Positions 19,826-54,783 of a DNA stretch of 64,000 nucleotides are shown piece by piece. This DNA is from Dipylidium caninum (Eukaryota; Platyhelminthes; Cestoda; Cyclophyllidea; Dipylidiidae). A program made the translations under genes and the position numbers. Position 1 is the first letter of the stretch. Each line of letters opens with the position of its first letter. The stretch lies in contig QEYB01000646.1 of the NCBI GenBank assembly GCA_017562135.1, forward strand, positions 1-64,000, read 5' to 3'. The notes under the pieces are model-generated. The model was not told where the DNA came from. It was given only the letters and a program-made list of their open reading frames with translations, and searched no databases.

Positions 19826-19859
<34 letters not shown>

Positions 19860-27093: not shown

Positions 27094-27119
27094 AGATGGA
27101 CTGGACGTAGGCGAGGCAA

Positions 27120-35036: not shown

Positions 35037-38000
35037 CTGGCCTCACTCCCCGCGCCCTCGGACGCCTTGTGGTCAGGAAAGACGTGGAACAATGGACAAG
35101 TTGTTGGATAAATAACTTTGGAGTTTGAAGTCCTTCAGCGTAGGCTGCCCGACGAGAGCAAAAGGGAGAACTCCCAGGGCAACGGGATAACTGTGCACTT
35201 TAGGTGAGAATAAAAATTCAAAAATTTTTGCCACAAAATATCATTTATTTTATCAAGCTCCATACGATTTTGTGGATATGATCTTTCGGCATCTTTCAAG
35301 CGTTGTCATAATTCCAATTCGGGCAATTTTTGACCTTTGCTAGCAAAAAAAATGGAATCAAGTGTGATCTGATATTATTAGCGACGTTGAAATTTCGTCT
35401 TGAAGGAGGACCCCGTGAAACGATGAGATAATTTGTGGCGCGAGGGCGCAACGCCAGGACCGCGTGGCGGAGCGTGGCGGACGTGAACGCCAGCCCACGA
35501 GAGATCGTGGAGCTCCTGGCCAGATACCAACACCCTTACGAAGATTTGCCACTACTGGCCCACTTGCTCTAAAGGATTCGCTCATTTTGCCGAGTTTTAA
35601 ACCCCCACGACTGGAATGACCGTTTGGTGTTTCGGGAAACGTTCAAAGTGCAGTCTAATCCCACCCCACTGACCGCAAAATCTCCCCTTCCCGAATCTCT
35701 GCTTCTGATGTCGCCTGGCCTGGTTCGTCTCGCATCACCTACCCGAATCTTCCCCTTTAACCTTCTTCTCAACCCTCCACTTCTCCTTGTTCCCAGTAAC
35801 ATCCATTTGAGACGCACGGCATCGCTGCTCCCAATGCGTGGCAAGCAAAAAGCACTTTGCCCAAGCTGATGAGGCATCCACAGCTCGAGTTCCCTCCCCG
35901 TGCATGCATGTGATGCTTGAGCCTTTCTGCGACACCCCGTCTTTGTGCTCCGACCATCTGAGTCGGCAATGGCCGCAATTCACGCGGGGTGGCCCGCGAC
36001 TTCGACTGGAAGGTCGGCCAAATCGTTGAGGAATTTCCAGTGAAACACAACAGAACAAAAAATCTGACAAACCAATTCTCACCCGCTTCCTTTCAGGCCT
36101 TCGTTCCCATCTACAACACATTTGTGGTGTTGTACTTGCGATGCGTTATCGTCTCTTCGGATAAAATAGTACTACTAAGTAGTTCTGAGGTGCACGCCCA
36201 ATTCCTCCCTTTCAAATTGGCGACACAAATCAACACTATACATTGCCTGGACAAAGAGAGAGCTGGACTTAAACGCATAGTTTTTTGCACTAAATTGAGT
36301 AGAAAGTCCACATAAGAGGAAAAAAAGTTGGGGAGAGGTGCTGTGAACCACGTTGACGAGACGAAGGAAGGTGGAAGGCCGCCCTTGACTTGGCTGTCAA
36401 CCCACTACTTTTGATGCGACCATTTCAGTAGTATAACAAGTCGTCAAGGTTGTTCTGCAAAAAAAACCAAATAAAAGTTCGCAGTAGACATAAGATCGGT
36501 ATGAGTTGTGGTTTCTGACAAAAGACGGGGAGGCATGGGGAAAGAGGCGTGTGCTCAAACGCTGGCAGAGGGGAGTCGCCTTTAGGGGGGGGGGGGGGCG
36601 GGGGCGGGGCGGGAGGGTCGATTTAGCTTGTCACTCCCTCCACCTCCAACACTCGACGCCGCACATGACAGGGTCGAGTGGCATGAAAGAGGAGGAGATT
36701 GGTCGGCCAGGCGATCGCGCCGATGCCACGGGTGGGCGCGACGAGGGCAGGCCATAATGGTAAGTGAAGTGGGTGGAGAGAGAAGGCTGGGCAAGTAGAC
36801 AAGTGGGCAAGTGGGCCAATATAGTGGACAATGACAAGTGGACAAGTGGATATAGTGCAGGAGTGCATGCAAGAGACGCCAAACGGAGGCGAGGCGGTCA
36901 GATTGGAAGTCGAGTCGGAAGGCGGACAGTTTGGGAGGCAGTCGCTTAGCGCAGTCGAGAATAGTGGACGCATTCAGCGTTGCGTGAAGTTGTTGGGGAG
37001 GACAAGATGTGGACATTTAGGAGGAGACGGGCAGTTTTTGCATTTGCGAGCGACTGGCACAAGGCGTGGACGCGGAAGACAGTGGCACGTTCGGTTCGCA
37101 GTGAAGACGACGAAGCGTTTGCGCCTGCGAGGTGCGTGGAAGGCGACCTGTCGAGACGGGGGCTGAAGAGGAACGGTGATGTGCGTGGGAAGCAGTGACC
37201 CTGTGGTGAACTGGTGGGTGGTGGAAGAGTTGGCGTCTCAGAAGAGGTCTGGTGGAGGCGGTGTGGAGGGAGGACGCGATGGCAGACGAGAGGTGGCTTT
37301 CCTCCTCTCCTCCTCAGTGCGTCTTCCTCTGCCTCTGCCTCTGCCTGTCTTGCTGTCGTCTCCTTGTTCACCGCCTCGTTCACCGAAACGCCTCGTTCAC
37401 TAAACGGAGGTGGACGAGGTGGACGAGGTGGACGAGGGGGATCGGGGCTTCTCGAGGTGGGGCGAGGTGAGTGCGTGCTGCTTCGACGCGAGCTCGAGGG
37501 AGAGCGGAGGGTGTGCCAGTGTCGTGGAGTTGCGCCAAACCGACCCGAAATGCCCCCTCGTGTGGCGGCTGGGTGACAGCACAGACTCGTTGTGGTGGAG
37601 GGTCGTCGTCGGGAGGGGGCACCACTCACACGCGGAGTGAAGAGACACTGGCTGATGTGGCGATGTGCGTGATGTGGTTGATGTGGTGACGCGGTGGTCT
37701 TCCGATGGGTGGCAGACACGCTGTCGCGCGACAGTCATGCGACAAGTCATGCGACAGGCACACGCGCAGGTGCCGGTTTCGCTGCGGTTGCGGTTGCGGT
37801 TGCGGTTTGCGGGTGCGGGTGCAGTGGAGCTGACACAGCGAGTGGACGATCACGCGTCCGCGAGAGGCGAGAGAAGTGGAACACGTCGCGGATGAGTTTT
37901 GTCTGCTCGGAGACCGAGGTCGGTCGTGAGGACGGCGGTTGGCGGGAGTGGAACGTGGGAAGAAATGGCGACCGTGTTGGGCGTTGCGGTGATGTGCTCT

Positions 38001-40231
38001 ACTGCTCGTGTGGGGCCTCGTCCCGCTCACCTGACGTCGTCTCACGTCACACACACATGCGCGCGCATGACAGCACAACTCTTCTTCTCTCTTGTTCATT
38101 TCTCCTCTTTCTTGCCTTTTTCGATTTGCCTCGGCCCGTCCCGTCCGTCACTTGCCGACACAACAGTGAAATCACACGTCCTTGATGCCCCACCCGGAGG
38201 ATGGGAGATGTTGGGCCGTCGGGGCTGATTGCGTTTGACGTTGAGTTGGTCGCAACGTTTGCGAGCAACACTGGCAGCCGCTGAACGAGCCGTGATGAGT
38301 TTATTGATGGCCAGGAGGGTCTGCCCGTCTGTCTGTCTGTCTGTCTGCCTGCCTGCTGCGTGTCCGCTTCCGACCGCCCTCGACTGCCACTAACGCTCCC
38401 AATCGAAACACACGCAGTCACTGCTACTGCCACTGCCACTGCCACTGCCACCGCCGATGTCATTGTCATTGTCATTGTCATTGTCACTCTCACTGCCTCC
38501 ACTCCGCGCAGATGCTCTTGCACGGCCTCATGCGACGCGGCCACTGCCACTGACTGCGAGGTGTCGGTTGCACGCCGCGCCCACTTTTGTCCGTGCTCCA
38601 CTGCCTCCAGTCTGAAGTGCGTCGACTGTCCTCGTCTGACTGGTCAACTCATCTCGTCGTCGTCGCCATCATCGCCGCCACCACCAACAATGACGAAGGA
38701 GGCTGTCGGACCGGCGTCTGTGTCTGCGAGTTCGCTGCTCGGTTTATGCCTCACCGGGCGAAGGACAGACTGTCCTCGCGCGCGTCGCAGAGCAAAGTGG
38801 TCGTCATGGGTGTCCCGAGCACCCACGTCCGCATCGGCACCCTCACACAACCCCAACCGCGACTCCACTGCAACCGCAAGCGCAAACGCAAAATGCGCAT
38901 TAGAAGGACATCGGCGCGAACACGAGGTGCCCTTGGTGTCCACAGGAGAATTTAGACTCACCTCACACCACTTCGCGTCTCCTCCAGCCTTCGCGCCTCT
39001 CCCCGCCTCTCCCCGTCTCCTCTCCTCTCCTCACTTCTACTCGCCTCTCCTCCCCCGCCGGCACCACAGCTCAGGACGCCACAGCCCAGCCTCGCACTGA
39101 CAGACAGGTTTTTGACCTCACTCCGGATCGCGGTCTGCTGCCACCTTCGCCAATTGACTGTCCTCACGAGTGGTCGCGTCGGCCTGACACACAAGACGCG
39201 GTCAGCGATGCCGCACTTCCTGTTGACACACCGTCCACCTCCGCCCGACCGCCCGACCACCCGACCGCTCATCAGCATCTCGGATGAGCTGGAGGAGTGG
39301 GCGGTGCCGCGGCTGCGAGCGACGGGGTGCGTGGGAGAGAGACGCGACCAAACGAAGCGGTCGGTGGCGTCGTGCATGCTTTGCTCTCCTCCGCTCCACT
39401 CCACTCCACTCTACTCCACTCCACTCCGACGAGCACCTGCTCCTCCCCATCCTCTCCCATCTGATCTGATCTGATCTGATCGGGTCTGGTCTGATCTGAT
39501 CTGTTGCACGTCGAGATGATGGATGAAGCTGAGGAAGCTGAGCAAACTAAGAGGACTACAGCCGTGCTCCTGTCTGTTCCTCTCTCTGTCTGTCTTTCTG
39601 TCTGTCTGTCTGTCTGTCTGTCTGTCCGTAAAAAGATGTTTTTTGTGTCTCGTGCAAAAGCCTCCTGTTGATACGTGCGGTGTTGCCATCTGTGTTAAAT
39701 TGCCGCTGTTGAGGTCATTGACATGCGAAAGCCACTGCAGCCGCCGTGACCGTTGCACTGTCGTGGCTCGGCACGGCACGGCACGGCACGGCATGGCGTG
39801 GCGTGGCGTGGCATGACGTGACTTGACATGATTTGCATGGGTGGTGCGGCGTGGCTGGCGAGAGGTGACGGACGAGGTGACTTGAACTGACCGCTCTCAG
39901 GTCGGTGCAGTCCGACCACGTGAAAGGCAGCCCCGACTCGGTGAATGTGCAGCCTGCCGACCGCCTTCTTCCACCAGCCTCTCGAACTGCCTCAGCTGCC
40001 TCAACTGCCCGCTCCCTGTCTGGCGTGAGACGCGCTACGTGCGGCTGACATTTTGGACGAGGTGTAAGTTATGGCCACACTCGCGACCTTAGCCAAGGTC
40101 GGTGTTCGAGGCTGCCATCCCCGTGGTCGTCTTGGAAGAGCCGTGGCAGGGACGTTGGGTAGAGCGTCGTGTGCACTGAGCTGTTTGGCTGCACGAAGGT
40201 CAGGCAGAGTGGAGGTCATTTGGGTGTGCTC
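35037..40231 (-). repeat. Inverted-repeat arm B' (partner of 19219-24323)
   Basis: Reverse complement of arm B over 5.2 kb. The match is close from about 37900 to 40231. Between about 35400 and 37600 the copies differ by many one- or two-base indels, mostly in homopolymers, such as CTCTTCC against CTCTTTCC and CCCCCG against CCCCG near 22860-22900 / 36510-36540. That pattern looks like uncorrected long-read error. Arrays match arm B: hexamers at 38420-38495, CTGT/GTCT at 38320-38350 and 39577-39629, and GATCA-type pentamers near 39460-39500. Confidence 0.88.
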
Positions 40232-41041
40232 AAGTCAACTCTGCTGCTCGAACAGCATCGGACTCTCACAAAGAATTGTCGAAAGTCGAGGAGGATGAGA
40301 GAGAATCGCTGAAGGTTATCTGGCAATGATTTGTTGGAAGATGGCGACTATGGTGGCGTTGATATTGTATTATCGCCACATGTAATTCCTTTGTCTCATG
40401 TGTTTGATGCTTCTGCATTGTTGCATGTCCTCTTGTAAGTAAGATTGGAAATTTAAAAACGTGTAGTTTACTCATGTCGCGATGAAAATATATCTCCTAC
40501 TTAAACATCCGGCTATTCTTCGTCTACGCCTCTACATACTAACACAACCGCTGGGGAAAGGAGTGACTTGTCTTTCTATCGCCCTTCTACCATCGCCACC
40601 ACTTAGACTCGTAATCGCGTTAAACTAGTATTTTTGACTAACTAAACATCCGACACGCCCCTTTCTTTTTAATGGCCACACAATCTCTACTGATTAATCT
40701 ATAAGTAGCACAGTTTGAAGGTTTTTTCTGCGTGTCAGCCTACCAGTGCGAGGAGGACGGGGGGGCCTGTAAACCCTATTCTGGCCAGTAATTGTGAGAA
40801 GCAGGCCATAGGGACGTTAAATCTCGCCTACTACACGAAACATACCGCTTAAATGACAAATTTTTTGGCTGGTGAAATACCGATTTTTGGTTGTACGTGG
40901 ATATTGACCCGGTAAGAGTTCCGTTACCTAAATACAAACGCAGATCGACGAGGTCATACACAACTGCGCTGTTTTTGTGTTAATGGCCAGCGCAGCGGAG
41001 AAGGCCTCGAGTTGGTTCATTTTTACATATCCAACTTCAAC
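40232..41041. other. Spacer between the 21-kb repeat and duplication D
   Basis: AT-rich unique sequence. Its last 100 bases belong to the outer edge of duplication D: AAACGCAGAT at about 40938 and ACAACTGCGCT at 40972-40982 recur, inverted and in the same order, upstream of the small gene starting at 49456. No gene otherwise. Confidence 0.5.
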
Positions 41042-41176
41042 ATGTCGGAGCCAATCACCATGGAGGATCTGAAGCGTCTCCTTCTCATCTTTTGCCTCCT
41101 TCGCCAAATTTGTTGCTGTTGTGATTGCAAATGCAATAGCCAACAATGCTGTTGTGGATGCTTGTTTGAGCAGTGA
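41042..41176 (+). CDS. Small cysteine-rich protein, member 1 of the D-cluster family (44 aa)
   Basis: A single-exon frame of 44 residues. It starts MSEPITMEDLKRLLLIFCLL and ends in a tail with 12 cysteines in about 20 residues, including CCCC and CCCGC clusters. The middle is a short amphipathic to hydrophobic helix. A canonical AATAAA lies at 41200-41205, 24 bases past the stop. The mirror-image gene at 49456-49328 shares the plan and sequence (PIT-x-ED-[LV]-K-[KR]-x-LL, then CL, Q and CCCC), as well as upstream motifs. That two such frames occur at mirror positions makes chance very unlikely. Role unknown: the tail could bind metal, be lipid-modified or form disulfides. There is no classical cleaved signal peptide. 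I do not recognise the family. Confidence 0.75.
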   Translation: MSEPITMEDLKRLLLIFCLLRQICCCCDCKCNSQQCCCGCLFEQ

Positions 41177-41199
41177 TGTTCCTCTTTTTTTTTCTTATT

Positions 41200-41205
41200 A
41201 ATAAA
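41200..41205 (+). terminator. Polyadenylation signal AATAAA of small gene 1
   Basis: Canonical AATAAA 24 bases downstream of the stop codon at 41174-41176, preceded by a T-run. The position fits a very short 3' untranslated region. Confidence 0.6.
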
Positions 41206-43023
41206 CTTAGTTTTTATCAACTCTCCGCCTTCGCTTCTAACGGGGGACGTTCGTTCAAGATCTGCGTTCTCCCCTTACGGCCAAATATAAAGGTTTACGT
41301 GTGAACAAACCCCTTTCTTTTTTCTTCTCTCTTGCTCTTCGCGGCAGTTAACTGTATCCGACGAAGTATGGCGGCCAAACTGATGAAAAGTGGCCCGTGC
41401 CACTGCAATTTCCCTTTTCCTCGTCCCGCGCTCAATCGCAGCCAATAGCATCCCCACCGGAAAGATTAACGGTATTTCTGGCGCCCCAGTTTCACGCGCC
41501 TGGCTCCCCACCTTCCGCACTTAAGTGTGTTTCCCTAAGATGCATAAGTCAATCACGAAACAACCGACCAATAAGATGAGCCGCCCAAGGTCAAAGGGGA
41601 TCCATCGAATTTATGCTTTATCATTTGCTCCATCTTTTCCACTTCCCCATCTACTATGTTTTAAAATAGTGCATGGAATATACGTCGTAGATATCAGACA
41701 TCAAAATCAACCTACCTAGCGACCCATTTATCATGAAATCATCGCATAACATTGAAACCGCCAGCTGAAGGCACAACTGGAAAGGGTTTTACGAAAATGT
41801 CGAAGCCAATGTGCGGCACTTTCAGTATCTTATCCGTTTCATTCACCCCAAAATTTTTAAAGCAAGAAAGTTTATGCTAAGGGCGGACACTGGGGAGATT
41901 GGACAATGTGACCACCTTCAGGCTACTTTCTGTTCTGATCGCGCCAACGTGTTTGCATGGCAACTGGGGAGGAAACAACGCCAGTTACTTATTTCTGTCT
42001 GAGCACAAGTGATGCAGCGAAGGCGGTGGCAATTTAAGCAACTCCCCTTAGGCCTACAAACACTGTGCAGTCCTGACAAAGCTTAAATGCTACGCCACCG
42101 TCACAACAACCACTAGCAACATCGTCACTGCCACCAACCACTCACACGCCAATTCGCTTACTGTCTAAACCTGGACTTCTGCAATAAAACGCCATTTTCA
42201 AACGACTGGAGGCGTAGAGGTGGCTTAAAGACGCACGAAGAGACGAGGAGAGTTGGGCGACCGTCAAACACACCGTTTTTGATCTTATGGCTAGACAAGT
42301 AACCTTTCTCCGTGGTGCCTTCGCGTCTCCGTCCATGTCAGACGTCGGGTCGACAATTAGGACGACGCGCACACCGGCGGACCTCAACTGTCCAGTGGGA
42401 TGCGGGACTAACGCCAGTCCACTTCACCGCCGGTGACGTCGACCCTCTCATCAGGATCACGGCAGTGGGAAAAGTGTGCCCAAATAAGGGTGGCGGAAAT
42501 TAGGGGCAGGCGGATTGTCCAACTCGCCTGTCTGTCTGTCTGTCTGTCTGTCTGTCCGACCGAGGAGGCATCTCCTTTCCACTCGAGCTAATCCCGACCA
42601 CACCTGTCTACTGAGAACAAATTCAGTAGGACGCACGAAGAGAAGATAAGGTTGGTGAGGCGATCTGATTGGCGGAATGACAATGAAGTGAGGGGAGGAG
42701 GGTACAGCCTTGAGGTGGGGTGCATTCTTCATTCTCAATCTTCCACCGTCGTCTCCTGATCTCCACAACGCATTGTCGACGGTCTAGCGTCTACCGTCGG
42801 ATCACACCTGCATGCTTGACAATGCGCCAACACACTAGCAAACGGCCAGATCGGAGATGTCACGTCGGTGCAGAGAGAAGACGGTCCAGAAAGTGCACAG
42901 GAAGAGAGGAGGAAATAGGTAAAAGTGGATCGAAGGGGTCGAGGAAAGAGGATGATAAAGAAGAATACAAGATGAAGAAGGGTCTAGTAAGGCGGCAGGA
43001 AAATGGGCAGTGGGCAGCGATGG

Positions 43024-43203
43024 TTAACAGCAACAATGGCTGGGCAGACATCCGCAACAAGAGCACCCACAGCCTTGACAAAGTCCGAATGGTCGCAGAT
43101 CGAAGTCCCCAGTTCCAACGGAATCACGGAGGCTCCTGTACAGAATGTACAAAATCAACATTTTCTGCAAATCGGGAGCTGTCAAGGGGACGGGTGTCGT
43201 CAT
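43024..43203 (-). CDS. Small cysteine-rich protein, member 2 of the D-cluster family (59 aa)
   Basis: Fifty-nine codons from ATG at 43203 to TAA at 43024. The start MTTPVPLTAPDLQKMLILYI is followed by a short linker (RSLRDSVGTGDFDLRPFG) and a tail with nine cysteines in its last 18 residues, ending HCCC. The leader PDLQKMLILYILYR aligns with EDLKRLLLIFCLLR of member 1 and EDVKKYLLLHCLFC of member 6. A TATAAG box begins 51 bases upstream (43254-43249), and TGACACGTCA lies above it (complement at 43280-43289). It is divergent from member 3, sharing an 845-base intergenic region. This is the clearest member having both an intact frame and a recognisable promoter. Function unknown. Confidence 0.75.
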   Translation of the reverse strand: MTTPVPLTAPDLQKMLILYILYRSLRDSVGTGDFDLRPFGLCQGCGCSCCGCLPSHCCC

Positions 43204-43248
43204 TTTTGGTGCACTCGCTGATCGCGTCCACCGTGGTCCACTCGACTT

Positions 43249-43289
43249 CTTATATGGCCAAATCAGCTGTCATCTCATCTGACGTGTCA
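43249..43289 (-). promoter_or_regulatory. TATA promoter of small gene 2
   Basis: Reading on the minus strand: TGACACGTCA (43289-43280), TGACAGCTGATT, then CCATATAAG with the TATAAG hexamer at 43254-43249, 51 bases before the ATG. The same order and spacing occur before genes 3, 4 and 5. TGACACGTCA is a bZIP/CRE-like palindrome and CAGCTG an E-box; binding is inferred. Confidence 0.65.
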
Positions 43290-43962
43290 CCTGCTTCTCC
43301 GCATCACAGGGTGCGAGGTGAGAAGTGGCTCCCACTGACCACAAGACCAACGCCTCCCCACTATCGCCCCACATCAGCCTGTGGTTCTCACGTCGAGACG
43401 ACTGCTGCGACGCAGACACCCACTCTCGACTCTCGACTCTCGACTCGCCAACACACCGATTTATTATGCGCTATACCCCCGTCCACCCCCGTCAACCCCC
43501 GTCAACCCCACCTGCCTTTCACGTCTACCCCGCCTTCCCACGCCTCGACTCCGCCGACATGCTGATGGGCGTTTGGGGTGAGGTCCACCACCGCCATCTT
43601 CTCACCCATCCGCCCCGATTCAGTTTCTCCCCCGATTCCGCGGCCAGCAGCATCGGACATCGCGCTCACCGAGTGCTGCAACTGACCCGCCATTCACGAT
43701 GAGCCGCCCAACAAGTCCCGTGGACCTGGACGAGTTATGAGCGAAGGGAGGATGGTGTGAGGAAGAAGCCCCACCGCTTCACTCTTAGCATCACCTTCAC
43801 GCCCTTTCTCGAGAGTCGAGAATCGAGAGTGGGTGTCTGCGTCGCAGCAGTCGCCTCGACGTGAGAACCAGAGGCTGATGTGGAGAGCCAGTGGGGAGGC
43901 GGTGGTCTTGTGGTCAGTGGGAGCCACTTCTCACCTCGCACCTGTGATGCGGCGAAGCAGGT

Positions 43963-44003
43963 TGACACGTCAGATGAGGTGACAGCTGATTCGGCCATAT
44001 AAG
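43963..44003 (+). promoter_or_regulatory. TATA promoter of gene 3
   Basis: TGACACGTCA at 43963-43972, TGACAGCTGA at 43980-43989 and TATAAG at 43998-44003, which is 51 bases before the ATG at 44049. The block is nearly identical to those of genes 2, 4 and 5. Confidence 0.65.
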
Positions 44004-44048
44004 AAGCCGAGTGGACGACGGTGGACGCGATCACCCGCTTTATACAAA

Positions 44049-44402
44049 ATGTCTGGCACTGAGCAGCCACCGACTGGCACTGAACCTCCTCCCTCTCCTC
44101 CTCCGCCTCCTGCAACACCCGCTCCTGTTAACCTCACCGAAGCTCTGCAATACTTTCTTTGGTTTCTCCTACCAGTCTTTTTCAATCGCCCAGACGCAAT
44201 TCAAGAGGATTCCTTTTCTGAGATCTGTCCCCTGTCGATTCTCTTGGACCTTTTCCCTCTTCATCCAACATTGCGTGCCCACCCCACCTTCCCTCCTCCC
44301 CCTTCGTCAACGCTCCCTCCCCTCCCCTTCCTCCCCTCCCCTCCCCTCCCTTTTCTTCGGGGCTTTCCGCTTCCTCCTCCCGTCCCCTGTCACCCTCGCT
44401 GA
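44049..44402 (+). CDS. Proline-rich relative in the D cluster, member 3 (117 aa)
   Basis: The ATG lies 51 bases after a TATA box identical in context to that of gene 2. The protein begins MSGTEQPPTGTEPPP, then a proline stretch, then PVNLTEALQYFLWFLLPVFF, which lines up with the PITMEDLKRLLLIFCLL leader of the cysteine-rich members. After residue 45 it turns into an acidic segment (NRPDAIQEDSFSEICPL) and a Pro/Leu/Ser-rich end encoded by CCTC repeats. The cysteine tail is missing. The 3' flank still resembles that of gene 2. This is either a variant that swapped its tail or a decaying copy. The reading frame through the repeat-rich end is doubtful, and the true C-terminus may be shorter. Confidence 0.5.
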   Translation: MSGTEQPPTGTEPPPSPPPPPATPAPVNLTEALQYFLWFLLPVFFNRPDAIQEDSFSEICPLSILLDLFPLHPTLRAHPTFPPPPSSTLPPLPFLPSPPLPFLRGFPLPPPVPCHPR

Positions 44403-44700
44403 TCCCCCTCCTTCCCTCTCCTTGTTCGCGATTTCCACCGCCTCTCCGCTGCACCCGCGTGACATCACCGATGTGGCCCGACGCAGCAGACTGGCTCGTG
44501 CACGGTTGATGCGAAATTAGACACTCGACAGTGGACGGTGGAGATTGGAAGACGACGGTGGAAGGTGTGGGATGGAGAATGGACCTTGTCTCAACACTGA
44601 ACTCTTCTCCCCAAACCCTTGTCATTCCACCAATCGCAATGTTTCACCAAACCCTCTTTGTGTGACACATGCTACTAAAGCCCTTTTCAGTAGGTCGTTT

Positions 44701-45944
44701 CGGAAAAATCTTTGCGCCGTATAACTTTCATTTACTACTTGTGCGGCAAGGTTGACAAACCGCTTTTTGGAGGGTGCCCTTCCTTTGTTTATTTTGAGAC
44801 TACTAAAGATATCTAACTGAGGCAATCACGTAGGGTTCAACAGTGTCGTTACCTGATTAGACCCTTCTGTCTTAATCTATTTTCAATGACTAGGAAGATT
44901 AATTATCTTCGCTAAAACTAACTTGCCATCAGCCAAACGCTAATCGACTCGGAGCTTTTTTGGCTGGCGGACTCTACTGTCTCAACCAAAACCAGATGTA
45001 ATGGTATCGCCTACTAACGTTTCAGCTTGTCGTGTTCTCGTCTCATTCTCTGTCCTTCACTGATGTCCTTTGGTTCGACAGCCGAAAAACATCTGGTTTT
45101 GCCATTTGGCTTTGTCATACGAAAATGCAGTATCGCTCCGACCCAGTTGGCGTCTTCCCCGAGGCGTCGACTCTAACAAACAACCAAATGACGAGGTTTG
45201 GCTGCATGATCCCGTGGCTTCAGGGTGAAACCTCGAGTTGGGCAATGTAACTCTCTCGCCCAAATTTTTTCAGAAATGAGTGAACTTCCTTAGGCTTTGC
45301 AATCAGCGACATTAGCATTTGTAGCCCTATAAAAGTGTCACTTGAAAAGCGACGTTAAAACTCATGGGGTCAGTGTAAACTAAGCCGACGGTTTCATCCT
45401 GAAGCCACGGGAATATCAGCAGCAAACTCGACGGTGAGAGTCGACGCCTCAGAGGCGGGACGCAACTGTCGAGAACGGGCGGCATGCGAGATGCATTTTT
45501 TCTATCCCTTCGGCAAACATGGGCGAAAGGAAAATTTTTTCGACACCATCCTGTAAACAAAAACATCGAGCTAACGTACTTACATGCGTCCGTTTAACGG
45601 AAGTGAGGCGTCTCCTTACATTGGTTTGGATTACCCTAATTCTGGAGACTTCCCCGGTCAAAAAGATTAGCTCCGATCGGCTGGTAGCGTTTGGCTGACT
45701 TGGGCAAGTTGATTGCTTAGCCGAAGAATAGTTTTCCCATTGAAATGAAAGAAGGGTCTAATCGATTAGACCACCAGGGAAAATCACCACTGTAATCAAG
45801 ACCGCGCAATTGAGATAATTTTTTCCAAAATTAAAAAGGAAGGGCAAAAAGCCCCCCTCCAACGCGGTTCACCTGTCGCAAAATTGCCTGGCTAGATTTA
45901 TATTATTCAACGGCGCAAAAGTTTTCCGATTAAAGATTGTCTAC
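44701..45944. other. Central region of duplication D, weakly palindromic, no gene supported
   Basis: AT-richer sequence. Blocks such as GATTAGACCCTTCT, CAGCCAAACGCTA, GAGGCGTCGACTCT and CCCGTGGCTTCAGG appear on each side of about 45311 in inverted order, separated by diverged sequence. Small frames (45032-45250 plus, 45327-45566 minus) share PWLQ(G/D)ET at the mirrored position, which could be remnants of a duplicated exon. That is too little to call genes. Confidence 0.5.
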
Positions 45945-46246
45945 TGAAAAGGCTTTAGTAGCATGTGTCACACAAAGAGGGTTTGGTGAAACAATGCAAT
46001 TGGTGGAATGACAAGGCCTTTGGGGAGAAGAGTTCATTGTTGAGACAAGGTCCATTCTCCACCCCACATCGTCAACAGTCGACCTTTCAATCTCCACCGT
46101 CCACTGTCGAGTGTCTAATTTCGCATCAACCGTGCACGAGCCAGTCTGCCGCGTCGGGGCCATCGGCGATGTCACGCGGGTGCAGCGGTGAGGCGGTGGA
46201 AAACGTGAACAAGGAGAGGGGAAGGAGGGGATTAAGCGAGGGTGAC

Positions 46247-46598
46247 AGGGGGACGGAGGAGGAAGCGGAAAGGGGTAAGAAGAGGGAGGGGAGGGGAGGG
46301 GAGGGGAGGGGAGGGGAGGGGAGGGAGGAGCGTTGACGAAGGTGGAGGAGGGGAGGTGGGTGGGCACGAAATGTTGGATGAAGAATGAAAAGGTCCAAGA
46401 GAATCGACAGGGGACAGATCTCAGAAAAGGAATCCTCTTGAATTGCGTCTGGGGCGATTGAAAAGACTGGTAGAGGAGAAACCAAAGAAAGTATTGCAGA
46501 GCTTCGGTGAGGTTAACAGGAGCGGGTGTTGCAGGAGGCGGAGGAGAGGAGGAGAGGAGGTTTCAGCTGCCAGTCGGTGGCTGCTCAGTGCCAGACAT
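46247..46598 (-). pseudogene. Broken copy of gene 3 (D-cluster member 4)
   Basis: The ATG at 46598 sits 51 bases after a TATAAG box (46649-46644), and the first ten codons equal those of gene 3. An indel then gives a stop after MSGTEQPPTGS. Sequence for the NLTEALQYFLWFLL segment is still present downstream, with further one-base slips. It is the mirror partner of gene 3 (44049). The breaks are described as seen; sequencing error cannot be excluded. Confidence 0.6.
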
Positions 46599-46643
46599 TT
46601 TGTATAAAGCGGGCGATCGCGTCCACCGTCGTCCACTCGGCTT

Positions 46644-46684
46644 CTTATATGGCCGAATCAGCTGTCACGTCATCTGACGTGTCA
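46644..46684 (-). promoter_or_regulatory. TATA promoter of member 4
   Basis: On the minus strand: TGACACGTCA (complement at 46675-46684), then TGACAGCTGATT and TATAAG at 46649-46644, 51 bases before the ATG. Matches the promoters of genes 2, 3 and 5. Confidence 0.6.
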
Positions 46685-47399
46685 CCTGCTTCGCCGCATC
46701 ACAGGGTGCGAGGTGAGAAGTGGCTCCCACTGACCACAAGACCACCGCCTCCCCACTGGCTCTCCACATCAGCCTCTGGTTCTCACGTCGAGGCGACTTG
46801 CTGCGACGCAGACACCCACTCTCGATTCTCGACTCTCGAGAAGGGCGTGAAGGTGATGCTAAGAGTGAAGACGGTGGGCTCTTCCTCACACCATCCTCCC
46901 CCGCTTCGCTCTTCCCCGCATAACTCGTCCAGGTCCACGGGCCGACTTGTTTGGCGGCCCCGCCATCATCGCCCGATGATGCTCGCGGGTCAGTTGCAGC
47001 ACTCGGTGAGCGCGATGTCCGATGCTGCTGGCCGCGGGGAATCGGGGGAGAAACTGAATCGGGCGGATGGTGAGGAAGATGCGGTGGTGGACCTCACCCC
47101 AAACGCCTGTCGTCCATCAGCATGTCGGCGGAGGAGTCGAGGCGTGGGTTGGAAGGCGGGTATAGACGTGAAAGGCAGGTGGGGTTGACGGGGGTGACGG
47201 GGTGGACGGGGGTATAGCGCATAATAAATCGGTGTGTTGGCGAGTCGAGAGTCGAGAATCGAGAGTGGGTGTCTGCGTCGCAGCAGTCGCCTCGACGTGA
47301 GAACCAGAGGCTGATGTGGAGAGCCAGTGGGGAGGCGGTGGTCTTGTGGTCAGTGGGAGCCACTTCTCACCTCGCACCCTGTGATGCGGTGAAGCACGG

Positions 47400-47440
47400 T
47401 GACACGTCAGATGAGGTGACAGCTGATTTGGCCATATAAG
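47400..47440 (+). promoter_or_regulatory. TATA promoter of member 5
   Basis: TGACACGTCA at 47400-47409, TGACAGCTGATTTGG, then TATAAG at 47435-47440. The expected start lies about 53 bases downstream because of a two-base insertion relative to the other copies. Confidence 0.6.
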
Positions 47441-47486
47441 AAGTCGAGTGGACGACGGTTGGAACGCGATCACCCGCTTTATACAA

Positions 47487-47800
47487 AATTGTCTGGCACT
47501 GAGCACCCGACTGGCACTGAACCTCCTCCTCCTCCTCCTCCTCCGCTCCTGCAACACCCGCTCCTGTTAAACCTCACCGAAGCTTTCTTTGGGTTCTCCT
47601 CTCCAGTCTTTTTAATCGCCAGACGCAATTCAAGAGGATTCCTTTTTTTCGAAATCTGTCCTCCGTCGATCTTTCTCTTACATTTTCGCTCTTCATTCGA
47701 CATTCGGCTCCCACCCCATTCCTCTTTTTCCCTCCTTCCCCCTTTTCCATTCGTTTCAACTTCTTCCCTCCTCATTCATCTGCAAATTCGATTATCACTT
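47487..47800 (+). pseudogene. Degenerate copy of gene 3 (D-cluster member 5)
   Basis: The promoter and leader match gene 3, but the start codon context reads AAAATTGTCTGGC instead of AAAATGTCTGGC, so the ATG is lost by one inserted base. Further indels break the proline stretch and the NLTEA segment. It occupies the mirror position of gene 2, yet its body is of the gene-3 type. Confidence 0.55.
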
Positions 47801-48158
47801 TCCTGCCCCTCTCTAGCACTTTAATCTGCCTTTCTCTCTGCACCGTGTAAAATTCCACTTCTCCCTTAAGGCCCGGATTAGCTCGTAAGTGTTTTCGCGC
47901 ATAATGAAATATGTACATATGGTACAGCGTAAGCAGCCGAAGATGGACAATGGAGATTGGGAGACGACGGTGGATTGAGAATGAAGAATGCACCCCACCT
48001 CAAGGCTGTACCCTCCTCCCCTCACTTCCTTTTTCATTCCGCCAATCAGATTGCCTCACCAACCCATCTTCTCTTTCGTGCGTTCTACTGAATTTGTTCT
48101 CAGTAGACAGGTGTGGTCGGGAATTAGCTCGAGTGGAAAGGAGATGCCTCCTCGGGCG

Positions 48159-48189
<31 letters not shown>

Positions 48190-48550
48190 AGGACGAGGTT
48201 GACAAACTGCCTGCCCCCTAATTTCCTCCACCCTTATTTGGGCACACTTTTCCCACTGCCGTGATCCTGATGAGAGGGGTCGACGTCACCGGCGGTGGTG
48301 GACTGGCGTCAGTCCCGCATCCCATTGGACACAGTTGAGGTCCGCCGGTGCGCGTCGTCCTAATTGTCGACCCGACGTCTGACATGGACGGAGACCGCGA
48401 AGGCACCACGGAGAAAAGGTTACTTGTTCTAGCCATAAGATCAAACGGTGTGTTTGACGGTCGACCAACTCCCTTCGTCTCTTCGTGCGTCTTTAAGCTA
48501 CTTCTACGCCTCGAGTCGTTTGAAATGATGTTATTTTGCGCTGTCGGGAT

Positions 48551-49327
48551 GTATTTAGTAGTTCGTAGCAGTCACGACAGTGGCAGCTGTGGCAGCAGCC
48601 TTTAAGTCCTGTCAAAATAGAGCCGCTTCAACGGACCCTAACGGAAGCTGCGGTGCGTCGCCACCAGCGCCACTATCTCACGACTCGTCAGACCAGACAT
48701 GGGTGATTGGCCGTGTGTCCCTTCCGTTTGCCGGCCCAGGGACGTCCGGCTGGAGACCTCTGAGGTCTCAATAAGGTCAGCGGGGGAATGGATTGCAGAG
48801 AATTGTGTAAGAGACTCTAAGACATTCTGTCAACTGGGGTCATCCGCTCGAGATGGTCGAAACAGAAGACATTGTGAAACGAAGTTAGGCGTCTTCGATG
48901 TTACGACAGTGGTAGAGTATAAAAATTTTAATATTGTCATCCAAATTCCTGTAGCTTTATCTAATACAACTTAAAATCATCAATAGACTTTACCGAGGCC
49001 GACCTGGCTCCATCAGCTCTCCACTCAGCAGTCCTCGCGGGTGCGTGTGGACGCCGCGTGGCTCTCAGGATGGATGATCCAGTCAAGTCCTCGGTTTGGT
49101 GGAGCTTTTAGGTCTACGATGAAGAGAGACGAAACATTCTCCTCCTCCCTCCTCCCCGCTTTCATCTACTCGATGGAACCATCCATAGTCCACGTCGGGC
49201 CTCGTCTCCAGCTCAATGTACAAATTTCACCCCAAGAACAGGTTAGAATTTCGAAAATTGTTAGAAAAAACACTTTACTGTCCAATCATGTGCAAGAGAA
49301 AAGTAATCGTCAGTAAATAGGAGGGTA
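48551..49327. other. Spacer in duplication D, no gene recognised
   Basis: Unique sequence between the right arm and small gene 6. A variant polyadenylation signal for gene 6, AGTAAA on the minus strand, lies at 49279-49274, about 49 bases past its stop. Frames of 60-90 codons are unconvincing. Confidence 0.45.
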
Positions 49328-49456
49328 TTAGAAACACCCACATCCACAGCCGCATCCACATCCGCCTTGGCCACGACAGCAACAGCACATCTGACAGAAG
49401 AGACAATGGAGGAGGAGATATTTTTTAACGTCTTCTGTTGTAATCGGAGTTCCCAT
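49328..49456 (-). CDS. Small cysteine-rich protein, member 6 of the D-cluster family (42 aa)
   Basis: Forty-two codons from ATG at 49456 to TAA at 49328. It begins MGTPITTEDVKKYLLLHCLF, then CQMCCCC and a tail of strictly alternating Gly-Cys ending CGCF. Twelve of the 42 residues are cysteine. It is the mirror partner of member 1 at 41042. The leader aligns without gaps (PITMEDLKRLLL against PITTEDVKKYLL), and upstream motifs AAACGCAGAT and ACAACTGCGCT are shared in the same order. Unlike members 2-5, it has no TATAAG 51 bases upstream. Alternating Gly-Cys tails suggest metal binding or cross-linking, but that is speculation. Confidence 0.75.
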   Translation of the reverse strand: MGTPITTEDVKKYLLLHCLFCQMCCCCRGQGGCGCGCGCGCF

Positions 49457-50687
49457 TCACATTCACGGAGTAGCAGAATGCAAGCAAATGAAGTTACGAG
49501 GTCACCAAACCCCCTCTCTGCCGCCACCGGCCCTCACCAACCCCCGTCCGCGTGCAATTAGCACTATGTCCTGCTTATACTTATTTAAAAGCGCAGTTGT
49601 GAGTGGCTGCGTTCAAATCACATGAGTGCATCTGCGTTTCTAGGCTTCTCGAACTATTATCACCCATAACGCAGTTTTCGCCGTGATCCTACTGAAGAGG
49701 GACCATTTAAGTAGCATATGTTACTGAGTAGATGAAATTTTCTTTATGACTGAGATGTTTAAAAGGATTTCCTCCTGATTCCCGCAATAGTCACGAAAGT
49801 GAGATTTACAGAGCCTTTCTCGCCCCGTCACTGGCAGGCTGACAGTAAAACACGTCAGCGCGACCTACTTACAATGACATCAGTAGCACATGATGCACCA
49901 TTAGGTGGAAAGGGTCTTGTCAGAGGTTGGTGGTGAAAAGGGCGGTTGTAATTGTGATCTGCGAGAAATTAGGGCTGTCGAGGACTCCACACCCTTGTCC
50001 ACCTTCGTCGGGGCCACACAACCTCTCGCACCGATGCCATCACATGCGTCTTCTGTTCGTTCTCACCGCTTCTCTTAACGCTACTGCTTTCCTCCAATCC
50101 CAACGCGTTGGCCACTGATTGCGCAATTCAAATGACCTGACGAAAAAAAGCACGAAAGTGCGCAGAGCTGGAGGTAGGAAACAATTGCGACATCGTGGTC
50201 TTCGTTTTAACCTCGTTCTCCGCACAATTCAATCTGCGAGACTCCGCGACACACGTACGTTGTTTTGCTCCTTTCTATCTGCCGTCTCATCCTCCTCTTC
50301 CTCCTCACGCGCTTTACCCACACTCTCCTCTTTGTTTAAGCACACCTGTCTCGTCCACCCTCCGCTCCGGGGGCTTGTTGAACTTCTCGTTCCACTGGTG
50401 GTGATAACTTCTGTGTTGCGGGCGAGCTTGTTTTAATGAGCCGCATAGAATTGAGCAATTCCATCTTTCAAGGCAAGCGGGATGGAGCATGTTTTATAGC
50501 CCATCCTTCCGTCACGTCTTTGTCGCTCATTTACACGGCCAGAATTAAGATCATCTGCTGTCTAAAAACTTCCCTTTGGAGTTTTTTTAGAGGGAAAGGG
50601 GCACACCTCTTCTGCCGCATTTCAGTAATATTCTTAATACCTGAACTGTGAAATTTTTCTATTATTGAAGGTGTGCAACTGAGGTGA
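49457..50687. other. Upstream region of genes at 49456 and 50688
   Basis: Contains the inverted motifs AAACGCAGAT (near 49640) and ACAACTGCGCT (near 49595) shared with the promoter of member 1. The remainder is unique. A splice-acceptor-like CTATTATTGAAG near 50658-50669 could end a 5' untranslated intron of the next gene. Nothing else is recognised. Confidence 0.4.
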
Positions 50688-51434
50688 ATGCAAAATCGAG
50701 GAGGAATGAATGGCCACGGAGGACATGTGAACCACCTAGGCCATGCCCGGCATTACAGTCAACAACAATGCCATCCACAGCAACAGGGTCCACTCAACAA
50801 CTGGGCGACAACCACTCAATTTGTCAATCGTGCCAAACAAGCCGCACTACAACAGAGTGGAAATCACCAACTGGCTGCCCTCTTCGCCAATCACACTGGT
50901 GGCAGTGCCGTCGGTGGTGGTGGCGGTGGTGGAGGCGCTTCTGCCTCCTACGACGGTTTCATGCGGCCACCGGTGCCTGGTGTTCGAATGGGCGCGGCAG
51001 CACCACCGCAATCTCAACCGGTGGGTGGTGGGAAAGCTGCCTGTCAGTGCGCTAATTGTACGACTGAGAATCAGTTTCAAGGCTACCGACCATTCACGAG
51101 TGGAATGGATGAGACACAACAGCCTCGTGGAGGAGTAATGAGATTCACGTCACAGTTAACCGGTCTGCCTATTCCCGAACATCCGTCGGGACTGTTCCCG
51201 TCGGTTGACTTTGTTATGGTGCCTGCTGGCGAAAATGTCGGATGTGAATGCGGCTGCGGACAAAACATGATGTCGGCGTTTGTGGGTGGACCCCATCCAC
51301 AGGCTCAGCCTCCACCGCCGGTCCTACATTCTCGTCCGCAACAGCAGCAGTACGGATGGAATGGACCTCCGGACAACGGCGGTGCTCGGTACTATGGCGG
51401 TGGCAATAACATGCCTACGAACTGTCTCTTCTAG
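50688..51434 (+). CDS. Gln/Gly/Pro-rich protein with two cysteine clusters (248 aa)
   Basis: One uninterrupted exon from ATG to TAG. The N-terminus is Gly/His/Asn-rich (GGMNGHGGHVNHLGHARH), followed by a Gln-rich patch, a helical stretch (FVNRAKQAALQQSGNHQLAA), a poly-Gly run, then CQCANC at about residues 122-127. A folded-looking middle follows (RFTSQLTGLPIPEHPSGLFP, VDFVMVPAGENVGCECGCG), and the end is Pro/Gln/Gly-rich, finishing NCLF. The balanced composition outside the low-complexity parts and the absence of competing frames favour a real gene. CxCxxC and CxCxCG could bind metal. I recognise no family. No canonical AATAAA is close downstream. Confidence 0.65.
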   Translation: MQNRGGMNGHGGHVNHLGHARHYSQQQCHPQQQGPLNNWATTTQFVNRAKQAALQQSGNHQLAALFANHTGGSAVGGGGGGGGASASYDGFMRPPVPGVRMGAAAPPQSQPVGGGKAACQCANCTTENQFQGYRPFTSGMDETQQPRGGVMRFTSQLTGLPIPEHPSGLFPSVDFVMVPAGENVGCECGCGQNMMSAFVGGPHPQAQPPPPVLHSRPQQQQYGWNGPPDNGGARYYGGGNNMPTNCLF

Positions 51435-53516
51435 GGGAGAGACGTGGTGTTTGGCTATGCTCCCTCCGTGACCTGCCCCACTCCTCGGTTAACGCTTTAA
51501 ATCAATGCGATTTGAGTTATTGTCGTAAATTTTATGTCTTAACATAATTACCTCTCCTCCATCTCCTTCCTATCGCCTCATTCTGAGCCTTTCCATCGAA
51601 TATTACCTGGCGCATAACACATACTACTTTTTACATATCAGTACGCACACGAGGCTCTCAGTGGTTAAGGCAATTAGGGTTAGCTGTCTTAATAAGAAAA
51701 TAGTGTTTATTTCGACCCGAACCTTTAGACCAATGTGAGGCAATGAAATTAACATTTGCCAATGCTACACTCTTTCAGCTTCCCATGTCGTCCGCGAGTT
51801 TCCATAACATATGAATTGAAAGACACACCGCATTGAAACGTATAAGATCGAGTAAGTTTATGGAAGCAGCGAATACAATTACTCTCCTGTCATTTAGGGC
51901 TTGTCCATGGAGGCAGTAGATTTGCTCAGGGCAAAAGTGAGCCTGACCATGTGACAGTTACTGGGACAGGGGCGGAGAACGTATTCTCCACACTCGCCTG
52001 TTTAATGCTGTCTGGCTGATCCACGGTTTGTTAGGAAACACCTCGCCAAAATATTAAATGATCTGTTAAATAAGGCGGTGTAAGACCTGAGTATTTTGTC
52101 GACGTGTTTTAGATTTTAGTGGTCCATTCTGACGTACTTACATGACGATCCAAGCCTCCTTATTTTAATTTCCCCTCCAACTTTGCTGATAGGAGTTTTC
52201 ACTTTCGACATGATAAGGCAGACTTGAGAGTAAATCGGTTGCGTATCCTCTATAACATCGTGTGGTGCCCTCGGGGGTGTTTTCTGTATGTCAAAAATTA
52301 CTGAAATGATCCGGTCTGTGTGCGGAGGGTTTCTGACTGCAGATCGTTATTTGACTTGAACACCAGGGTCCCGTATGCGTTAATCACGCCCTAGAGGCGT
52401 TATGATCCCCTGTAGAACTCAAAGATTTGTAGTATCCTCTGCTTCTGATAAGTAGCACTTTTTCCAATACAATTACTTTGTGAAATTTTAGCTATTTTTA
52501 GGAACTCACTGAAAATCCTTAGACGAAGTGACAGCCAGGGATACCGACGTAGAAGCTAAAAAATGAGGAAGGCTGCATTGTAATCCCTTTTCAAACACAG
52601 CATCTAATTAGCCCCTTTCTATCGCTAGCATTCAAAAATAGGACATAGTAAATATCTGAATTATTCTTCTTCCTGACGTAATATTAGTCAACGCAGTTTC
52701 CATGACACAAAATCAAAATAGGGAAGATAAGTGGAGTATTAGCCCATTGACCCGGTGTACACTCAAATAGTACTTTAATGATCTACCTTTCATTGGCACT
52801 TTGATTATTTGCCAATCGAAAAACATGGCTGAGGTTTCGTTAAAGTGGTTATCAATGTTTGTAAGAGGAAAGGGCAGGTATGAGGCCCCAAGAATTCAAT
52901 AAAATGTCTGCGACAAAATCGTGTTTAACAGCAATAATTTTTAGTCTTACAATTATTTGGTCACCTAATACAGAAGGAAGTCTATGTTTTAATTTTCTCT
53001 TATATGAAGAGGCAACCCGATTTGCTTTCACTGGTATTCGTCAACGCCGGCGGCCTCGCGCCGTTGGGCTTGAATTATTTCTGGTGCTATGCTCTTAAGA
53101 CCTTTTTCATTTTACTCCATCCAAAGATCTTTTTTTGACGAAGGTGTAGCTTTTGTTGGTGTCTGGTAACCCCCTCATTTAACTTCCTAAATCCCAACCA
53201 ATATCAACTTCGGATATTTTGGTGCACAAGTTGTACTTTCTAGCTTCGTCTACATAGCCTTCGAACCACTAAACTTTGCGCGTTCCCTACAACATTGGTA
53301 AACCGTTTTACATTTTGTTCTCAATAAAGTACAATCTCTAAGTTCCTATTTTGCCCCTCACCTAAGTGAGAGTCTTTATCAATCCAGTCTGCCTCGTTAA
53401 GTATCAAAATAACAACGTTTTTTAATGGCTTTCTATGTAGGAAAAGTAGCTTCTCATTCCCTTTTATTTTGCCATTCCTTAGTCAACGATACAAGCACCA
53501 TCATTTTCTCTATCAG
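51435..53516. other. No gene recognised; may hold upstream exons of the next gene
   Basis: AT-rich unique sequence. The gene continuing at 53517 begins at an acceptor, so its earlier exons must lie in or beyond this interval, but I could not identify them. A 72-codon frame at 52880-53098 contains LLYEEATRFAFTGIRQ, which is worth testing as one. Confidence 0.4.
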
Positions 53517-54783
53517 AGGATGACTCTGGCTGGCAATCAGACCAAAATCGTTACCTGCTCGAGTCTATGGTCGTCTTCGCTCTGCGTCGAGGCTTCATGC
53601 AGGCTGCCTGTAAAAGTAAGTGCGCACTTAAAAACACTGTTGAAGCAACTAATTATAACGACAAATTTTTGTCTTATCCCGCTACAGAAATTACATCTCT
53701 CGTCTTCCTTTAGAATATCCTTAAGAGTAACAGCACGTTCGGGATAGAGTAGCATAGGTTTTGGCCTGAATAAGTACGTTCTATTTGTAATACCTTCTAG
53801 TTGCATCAGTAATGAGGAAGGACGGTTTGCAGCCCTCCAGCATGTCATTATGGTGTCTCAATGCTTTGTCTTCTCGGCTTCACGAGTTGGTGGAACGGTC
53901 TCGCTCCACTCCCACGGATCCCGAACTTTTGTGCATTCTGGAGGAACTCTCTGAAGCAGCATTAGCTCTCTCAATGGCCGCAGGACATGAAAGTCACTAC
54001 TCCAAACCTCTCCTCGTCTACAAACGTCATGTCGATCAATTAGTAAGTACTTCATATTTTCTGTCTTTTTTGAGAATCACTTGATAGCCTATTAACATGA
54101 ATGAGAGATTGTGTGTGCACATATTCTTTTACCTCAAGCACCACGTTTTCAGTCAACTCTTGCATCTGAGACTTCTCAACAGTCTCTGCTCCTAACTTTC
54201 GACTACCATTCAGACGCTTCTTTGCGATTTCAGCTTATGTTTCTTCATCTCGGATCCCCTAAGGAGGCTCACTTGCCCCATCTAATTCTCAAACTCAATC
54301 ATAAATTCCCTCCACACTCAAAGGTTTGTTTCCTTTGTGCTTCCTCTCAATTCCATTTCGTGTAAATTCGTTCTCATCTCTGTCAATAGGACCCTGAAAT
54401 CCAATTATTTCGCAATGGGTACGCAAAGCTTCTCGGATCGACAAGCGAGGCTGAGCGTTACTTGGCCGATGTTTGGTTTCCAAACCGCAGAAAGACCTTT
54501 GAAGCCCTTTTTAATAATGTTCGGGCTGTAGCTCAACTGCTTCCATACACATTCTTGGACCAGGTACTGCCAATACTTTGTAAAAGTACGTCCTACTCTA
54601 TCCCCATAAGTAATATTGCGCTTGATTTAGGTTGGAACACGACATCATGAACTCGCCGCGCGGGCGATTCAGAAAATTGAAACTGATTTTGGTAGAAATT
54701 TGCTCTCTGTACTGACCAATGCAAAGGAGTCGCTCACAGAAGCGGACTTACTTCGTGTCTTTGATACAACGGAGCCTGCTTAA
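53517..54783 (+). CDS. C-terminal part of a helical protein, five exons visible
   Basis: Exons by splice signal and phase: 53517-53615 (acceptor TATCAG, donor AAAA/GTAAGT), 53801-54042, 54153-54323, 54390-54563 (donor CAG/GTACTG) and 54631-54783, ending at TAA. Introns are 185, 110, 66 and 67 bases. The joined frame gives about 280 residues, nearly all helix-like. Segments include QNRYLLESMVVFALRRGFMQ, LWCLNALSSRLHELVERS, TSEAERYLADVWFPNRRKTF, ALFNNVRAVAQLLPYTFLDQ and ARAIQKIETDFGRNLLSVLT. The pattern suits a helical-repeat or coat/scaffold protein, but I cannot name the family. The consistent phases across four introns make the gene very likely. The first exons are not located, so this is a partial model. 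Confidence 0.75.

Follow-up and report, generated by a model that had tools for sequence, protein, structure and literature searches.

The window analyzed here, a 64-kb stretch of DNA from the tapeworm Dipylidium caninum, contains six related loci arranged as the two arms of one mirror palindrome with its centre near 45.3 kb. We refer to each locus by its start coordinate. Three of them are Cys-tailed microgenes with intact ATG-to-stop frames, whose lengths, cysteine-dense tails and common layout had been described in an earlier note on this DNA and were all confirmed: microgene 41042 (41042-41176, forward strand, 44 codons) is the outer left member and mirrors microgene 49456 (49328-49456, reverse strand, 42 codons), the outer right member, and microgene 43203 (43024-43203, reverse strand, 59 codons) lies between them. 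Their products share a leader of the form P-I/L-T-x-x-D followed by a hydrophobic helix, and cysteine makes up about half of the tail, accounting for 10 of 21, 9 of 18 and 9 of 19 tail residues in 41042, 43203 and 49456, respectively, as counted by eye from the translations. A run of four cysteines directly follows the helix in 41042 and 49456, and tail spacing and length vary among the three. The Gly-Cys tail of 49456 consists in part of tandem hexamers (49334-49363), so slippage would make this stretch easier to obtain; no tandem arrays are listed inside the 41042 frame, and the sole array within the 43203 frame (43137-43155) falls in the helix, outside the tail. A possible poly(A) signal, AATAAA, lies 23 bases past the 41042 stop (41200-41205, forward strand) and recurs at +24 in a second copy of this gene on contig C817, and A(A/T)TAAA was not found within 300 bases past the 49456 stop, 400 past that of 43203 or 300 past that of a related gene, C817:3642.

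All six loci had been put forward as encoding Cys-packed proteins, which holds for the three microgenes but not for 44049, 46598 and 47488, which are Cys-poor. The leader VNLTEALQYFLWFLL ascribed to these three is present in 44049 and in 46598, where an in-frame stop precedes it, but not in 47488. Locus 44049 (44049-44402, forward strand) has a 117-codon open frame with an intact leader and a shifted tail, the frame of which differs from that of C817:3642-3812. Its mirror partner 46598 (46443-46598, reverse strand) is disrupted by an in-frame stop after 11 codons, and 47488 (47488-47647, forward strand), the mirror partner of 43203, is disrupted by absence of the ATG and partial loss of the helix. 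The Cys-poor protein encoded at C817:3642 has the helix and no Cys at all.

The inner arms of the palindrome span 42181-44720 and 45910-48539, within which 42181-42765 pairs with 48539-47951 (91%) and 43219-44720 with 47472-45910 (91%). Outer remnants pair 40645-40753 with 49928-49823 at 69% (E 4.4e-4 when 2.7 kb was compared with 2.8 kb). The inner four loci form two head-to-head pairs with near-identical promoters, 43203(-)/44049(+) with 845 bases between and 46598(-)/47488(+) with 889. Each promoter region is itself an inverted repeat: in the first pair (43219-44033) the arms are 43219-43443/44033-43809 (93%), with TATAAG at -51 of both genes, and in the second (46615-47459) they are 46687-46798/47285-47396 and 46625-46686/47398-47459. 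Microgene 43203 carries the promoter of the Cys-poor class up to roughly 30 bases short of its start, followed by a different, Cys-tailed coding sequence; compared with 47488, 25-30 of every 30 bases are identical from -269 to -30, against 8-12 of every 30 in the coding sequence. For the outer genes, the longest exact word common to the 250-base upstreams of 41042 and 49456 is the 12-base CACAACTGCGCT, a candidate shared box at -83 of 41042 (40959-40970, forward strand) and at -145 of 49456 (49590-49601, reverse strand), where TATAAG follows 22 bases after the box, at -123. No telomere repeats occur in the window or in C817:1-10000, and Rfam gave no matches over 38000-52000.

Judged from how the DNA differs between copies, the short Cys-tailed frames are very probably real protein-coding genes, and substitution analysis of 41042, 49456 and the Cys-poor leader showed the constraint that had been predicted. 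Microgene 41042 differs from its copy at C817:5706-5840 (reverse strand) at 5 of 132 bases, four changes being synonymous and one nonsynonymous (Glu-Asp), with no indel over 44 codons; the surrounding 2.67-kb alignment has 86% identity overall, and this frame is one of only two stretches in it with five or fewer differences per 132 columns. Between 41042 and 49456, 16 of the 27 residues of the leading part are equal yet only four codons are identical, and the third codon positions have diverged (identity 18/27, 21/27 and 6/27 at positions 1, 2 and 3). Leader and tail are both under this constraint. In the 21-codon leader of the Cys-poor class, 44049 and 46598 differ from C817:3642 by three and two synonymous changes, respectively, and by no nonsynonymous ones.

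Chance was assessed on 274 kb (the window plus C817:1-210000) and on ten first-order Markov shuffles of it. The real DNA has five ATG frames with at least seven Cys in the last 25 residues, namely the three microgenes, the C817 copy of 41042 and C817:85339 (seven Cys), which does not look like the family and was rejected as a member; the ten shuffles gave no such frame and a mean of 0.1 frames with six. Leader similarity was scored as BLOSUM62 local alignment against 5000 shuffles and then 5000 shuffles preserving the hydrophobic/polar pattern. No ordinary shuffle reached the scores among the three microgenes, and pattern-preserving shuffles did so in 0 (41042-49456), 9 (41042-43203) and 1 (49456-43203) of 5000. 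Against the Cys-poor class the corresponding counts were 0 and 26 for 43203, 115 and 591 for 41042, and 32 and 130 for 49456. Because of these scores, we regard 43203 and the common promoter as what links the Cys-poor class to the family, its other ties being weak.

Relatives elsewhere in the assembly were found on C817, with no acceptable match beyond contigs C51 and C817. All genome match counts are lower bounds: the 41042 protein matched at least three places, the 49456 protein at least three (including two weak matches, at E 0.19 and 0.3), the Cys-poor protein at least six (the sixth, on C739, having E 1.2 and two stops) and the promoter DNA at least six. The coding part of 43203 matched only itself, and no other copy of 49456 was found by protein or flank DNA search, the flank likewise matching only itself. 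The leader pattern matched at least seven places versus three for a reversed control, three of the seven being family. Five of the seven were inspected, the remaining two being on C751 and C807; the match on C349 was rejected as a member for want of a Cys tail, and that on C539 for its resemblance to a Sec7 exon.

As the earlier note had also recognized no known family, it agrees with our searches of Pfam, NCBIfam, PDB and a 5.8-billion-protein set, which gave no match at the thresholds used. Pfam-A at E up to 10 returned no families for 41042, 43203, 49456, C817:5709 or C817:3642, and at E up to 1 the 117-residue frame of 44049 matched only DUF4029 (E 0.18, below the family cut-off). NCBIfam, which covers bacterial and archaeal families, had no matches for four proteins, and PDB had none for 41042 or for the alignment. 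In the 5.8-billion-protein set, 43203, the one protein used as a single query (rather than 41042, 49456 or the Cys-poor protein), had no candidate, and a four-sequence alignment gave 61 candidates, none at E ≤10. We found no such family described in the titles and abstract openings of the open full-text literature. COX1 on contig C637, translated with genetic code 9, places the genome among tapeworms: in the best 120 of 8000 scored sequences the nearest named species are tapeworms, at 87% (Echinococcus), 86% (Taenia) and 85% (Cloacotaenia), and none of the 120 is a close match at species level. An Echinococcus spliced-leader fragment was not found with up to two mismatches, which says little. 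At the level of protein libraries the family is apparently an undescribed orphan.

We propose, at a probability of roughly 0.38, that these are membrane-seeking microproteins whose tails would cross-link into a keratin-like hard part. Each gene would be a single-frame microprotein gene of a tapeworm family, and its product, if expressed as we infer, would have a short polar or proline-bearing start, a capped hydrophobic helix and, at three loci, a thiol-rich tail. The helix would seat the protein on a membrane face or pack against like helices, the tails would most likely be oxidized into cross-links, and the cross-linked proteins would harden a keratin-like material lining membranes inside the cell, for example that of the embryophore or hooks, with the Cys-poor class, under the same promoter, as a possible non-cross-linking partner. 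Exchange between the palindrome arms may keep the head-to-head pairs alike, so that promoters stay uniform and coding parts diverge. Tapeworm hard parts contain cystine. In the accessible part of one account, the embryophore of a related tapeworm consists of keratin-like protein blocks under and lining the inner-envelope membrane, a location that suits a membrane-seeking helix without an evident secretion signal; cystine and sulphur have no occurrence in that part of the text (PMC5486576). The codon-level constraint supports the genuine-gene part of the proposal, and the Gly-Cys tail of 49456 also counts in its favour. Against it stand the few loci found for a bulk structural protein (three Cys-tailed in the window and one on C817), the lack of a second copy of the 43203 coding part, the failure to find A(A/T)TAAA past the three stops named above, the silence of the cited embryophore text on cystine, and the conserved hydrophobic helix, which to our knowledge belongs neither to chorion nor to hair keratin-associated proteins.

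Silkmoth chorion proteins are larger, secreted proteins with a central domain that is conserved, whereas the tapeworm proteins are 42-59 residues long, carry a hydrophobic helix and gave no Pfam match to that domain, and membership in the chorion family was rejected on these grounds. The likeness lies in Cys-rich products and in genome organization, since the silkmoth high-cysteine eggshell genes, in the accessible part of their description, form head-to-head HcA/HcB pairs on a common promoter region in small reversed groups, with gene conversion and with pseudogenes amid intact copies (PMC4639761). Pairs on a common promoter region are present at both inner pairs here, and the head-to-head TATA pairs, 91% arms and mixture of disrupted and intact copies match the chorion feature set, which supports a structural role. 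Hair keratin-associated proteins are likewise small, extremely Cys-rich, clustered, apparently intronless and cytosolic in a hardening cell, but the tapeworm family has no Pfam match, and its hydrophobic leader is not known from them. The fuller proposition is that this orphan family of cytosolic, thiol-tailed, membrane-seeking microproteins offers a first molecular candidate for what makes up keratin-like embryophores or hooks, and that in its chorion-like palindrome arm-to-arm exchange has held the promoters uniform and swapped the coding sequences behind them, a Cys-tailed gene thereby replacing a Cys-poor one; this seems to us rather improbable.

A close rival to the keratin-like proposal, though itself doubtful, is S-acylation, whereby the helix would bring the protein to a DHHC enzyme and the adjoining cysteines would be palmitoylated, coating it onto the cytosolic membrane face. 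The four-Cys runs straight after the helix fit this, as does the helix, which in three of four proteins is either not long enough or not apolar enough for an ordinary membrane span (Kyte-Doolittle means of the best 19 residues 1.73, 1.04, 1.00 and 0.79). Cysteine-string protein, whose Cys string coats it onto that membrane face, similarly has a dense Cys run adjoining a hydrophobic stretch; the tapeworm proteins have no J domain (no Pfam match within 42-59 residues), and their Cys-poor relatives, including the Cys-free C817:3642, keep the helix. No cysteine string known to us resembles the Gly-Cys alternation of 49456, and the helix is only weakly amphipathic (mean moments 0.30, 0.21, 0.06 and 0.12). 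The zDHHC17/13 recognition motif [VIAP][VIT]xxQP, given for cysteine-string protein and SNAP25 in the accessible part of PMC8059564, is absent by eye (compare PITMED, PITTED and PLTAPD).

We consider it unlikely that the leader serves as a signal peptide for a secreted product whose mature, disulfide-bonded part is the tail. A hydrophobic stretch of 8-10 residues does lie near the start, and small Cys-rich products are often secreted, but 12-29 residues with acidic residues or prolines precede the stretch and a T-x-x-D helix cap is present in 41042, 49456 and 43203, both of which appear unlike a usual signal peptide, and the leader is constrained together with the tail. Metal binding of the metallothionein kind is slightly less likely again: CYSTM and metallothionein families are tiny Cys-rich proteins too, and C-x-C and C-C spacings are present, but neither profile matched (Pfam, E up to 10), the conserved leader has hydrophobic and aromatic residues, and the tails differ in spacing and length. 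That the loci are chance or repeat-borne frames spread by segmental duplication, as two disrupted loci of six and the hexamer repeat of 49456 might suggest, is very improbable given the third-position pattern between 41042 and 49456, the excess of silent changes between 41042 and C817, and the Markov shuffles.

Frames of 42-59 codons fall below common gene-calling limits, so families of this kind can be absent from annotated tapeworm genomes. The combination of a kept promoter with a different coding part (43203 versus 47488 and C817:3642) makes exchange between promoter and coding sequence directly testable. If the keratin-like proposal is true, the family would give a molecular handle on hard parts otherwise described, in the accessible literature, only as keratin-like, and would be a second, independent and non-insect case of head-to-head Cys-rich pairs kept alike by exchange.

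All three frames that the earlier note had proposed to encode tiny cysteine-packed proteins are open from ATG to stop, at 41042-41176 (+, 44 codons), 43024-43203 (-, 59 codons) and 49328-49456 (-, 42 codons) of the 296,751-base contig C51, whose first 64,000 bases are the window and which belongs to a 106 Mb assembly of 920 contigs. COX1 on contig C637, translated with the flatworm mitochondrial code, has tapeworms as its nearest matches among the best 120 of 8000 scored (85% Cloacotaenia, 86% Taenia, 87% Echinococcus), none of them close at species level, so the source is taken to be a tapeworm, probably cyclophyllidean. Counted by eye, about half of each tail is cysteine, and an alignment of these frames (hereafter 41042, 43203 and 49456) with a copy on contig C817 has 13 invariant columns, including P4, T6, D9, L14, L19, Q22 and six cysteines (41042 numbering). 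Across 274 kb (the window and C817:1-210000), five ATG frames had at least seven cysteines in their last 25 residues, four of them from this family, and ten first-order Markov shuffles of the same 274 kb produced none of that grade. The fifth, a 49-codon frame at C817:85339-85488 (+) with seven cysteines in that stretch, lacks the family leader. The leader likeness held up as well, exceeding that of shuffles that included ones keeping the hydrophobic/polar pattern, which matched the observed score in 0, 9 and 1 of 5000 cases for the three pairs. Less weight falls on the Gly-Cys run of 49456 than on the other tails, because part of it consists of five copies of a hexamer repeat. Immediately 5' of this frame lies a start-stop pair (ATG-TGA-ATG at 49454-49462, -), an arrangement like that of genes preceded by a minimal upstream ORF.

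Coding constraint, expected by the earlier note across copies, was found in two comparisons. C817 starts within a diverged copy of the cluster region, and over 132 bases its frame at C817:5706-5840 (-) has five differences from 41042, four silent and one Glu-Asp, with no indels; at most one amino-acid change among five random single changes has P 0.004 (0.017 with fourfold transition weight). The surrounding 2.67-kb alignment has 86% identity and 31 indel events, and only 98 of its 2581 windows of 132 columns contain five or fewer differences. These fall into two groups only: the first begins at 41021-41049 (the 41042 frame) and the second at 42566-42634 (the inner palindrome edge). Over their first 27 residues, 41042 and 49456 share 16 residues yet only four codons, with identity at codon positions 1, 2 and 3 of 18, 21 and 6 of 27, in an alignment built on protein likeness that somewhat favours a low third position. 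Synonymous change has reached saturation (18.5 differences at 17.4 sites), compared with 17.5 differences at 63.6 nonsynonymous sites; a third position at chance level beside 67-78% at the first two is still typical of old coding paralogues. For 43203, which has no second copy, divergence from other members (pN 0.52-0.56) is too great to say much.

The loci are arranged around an inner palindrome centred at ~45.35 kb, in which 42181-42765 pairs with 48539-47951 and 43219-44720 with 47472-45910 (each 91%), and an outer remnant pair (40645-40753/49928-49823, 69%) has about the same centre. Mirror partners are 41042(+)/49456(-), 43203(-)/47488(+) and 44049(+)/46598(-), and two head-to-head pairs, 43203/44049 and 46598/47488, whose members are separated by 845 and 889 bases, sit on inverted-repeat promoters. 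Palindromes build much of the window, which holds four more large inverted duplications of 90-97% identity (19220-24325 and 35034-40229; 25532-27097 and 32125-33680; 4166-7211 and 27205-30275; 55679-56727 and 57472-58514); both arms of the first match C817:6838-10000.

In the head-to-head promoters TATAAG lies at -51, a position measured upstream of 43203, 44049 and the C817 locus at 3642. Upstream of 41042 and 49456 the shared element is a single 12-base box, and none of the TATA forms sought was found for 41042. The inner promoter DNA was located six times, four of them in C51 and two in C817; within the reach of that search it is therefore no dispersed repeat. Between 43203 and 47488, 25-30 of every 30 bases match from -269 to -30, 20 of 32 from -29 to 0, and 8-12 per block of 30-32 in the coding part; 43203 and C817:3642 give an equal picture, promoter alike and coding part unlike. 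Between C817:3642 and 47488 the coding part, too, is alike (18-29 per block), and thus two of the three arms have cysteine-poor coding parts and one a cysteine-tailed part. Either arm exchange ended at the 43203 start codon, or a cysteine-tailed coding part was placed behind the promoter.

Of the three cysteine-poor loci said to share the leader, 44049 is open (117 codons, with the tail shifted to a different frame), 46598 is interrupted by a stop following codon 11, and 47488 lacks an ATG and has a shortened helix. These defects are either genuine or arose in assembly where the sequence is of low complexity. On C817, 3642-3812 (+) is a clean 56-codon frame with no cysteine and a basic aromatic tail, and 2379-2555 (-) is open for 58 codons with the same end and a different middle. 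Against C817:3642, the 21-codon leaders of 44049 and 46598 have three and two changes, all silent.

Elsewhere, an open frame at 53791-54081 (+) matched the N-terminal domain of GCP5/Mod21 at E 0.053, short of the cut-off, and a PDB sequence search gave this no support. Partial COX1-like matches occur on C471 (in two orientations, with internal TGA/TAG), C261 and C637:24888-25928, additional to the mitochondrial one on C637; they may be copies in the nucleus, other oxidase-like reads, or a second copy of mitochondrial origin.

The earlier note recognised no known family; Pfam, NCBIfam, PDB sequences and a large protein set gave no match at the thresholds used, and no comparable family appeared in the literature titles and abstract openings listed. 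The tests applied place the proteins outside the chorion, cysteine-string, CYSTM and metallothionein families. The leader opens with proline or polar residues, followed by a cap (T-x-x-D in all three cysteine-tailed proteins) and 8-10 hydrophobic residues flanked by basic or polar ones. Helical moments are low, hydropathy makes a usual membrane span unlikely in three of the four proteins, and no secretion signal is evident. Each tail has 9 or 10 thiols, for which two chemistries are suitable, oxidative cross-linking and S-acylation. We prefer, at a probability of roughly 0.38, that the thiols would be oxidised into cross-links, with S-acylation a close second, because of the head-to-head pairs, arms kept alike, nearby pseudogenes and Gly-Cys runs. 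Tapeworm hard parts such as the embryophore and hooks are rich in cystine. The analogy is with silkmoth high-cysteine eggshell genes, whose reported layout is like the palindrome cluster here, with head-to-head pairs, similar arms and pseudogenes among them (PMC4639761). Small cysteine-rich proteins are already known as a kind; it is their arrangement in this cluster that is new.
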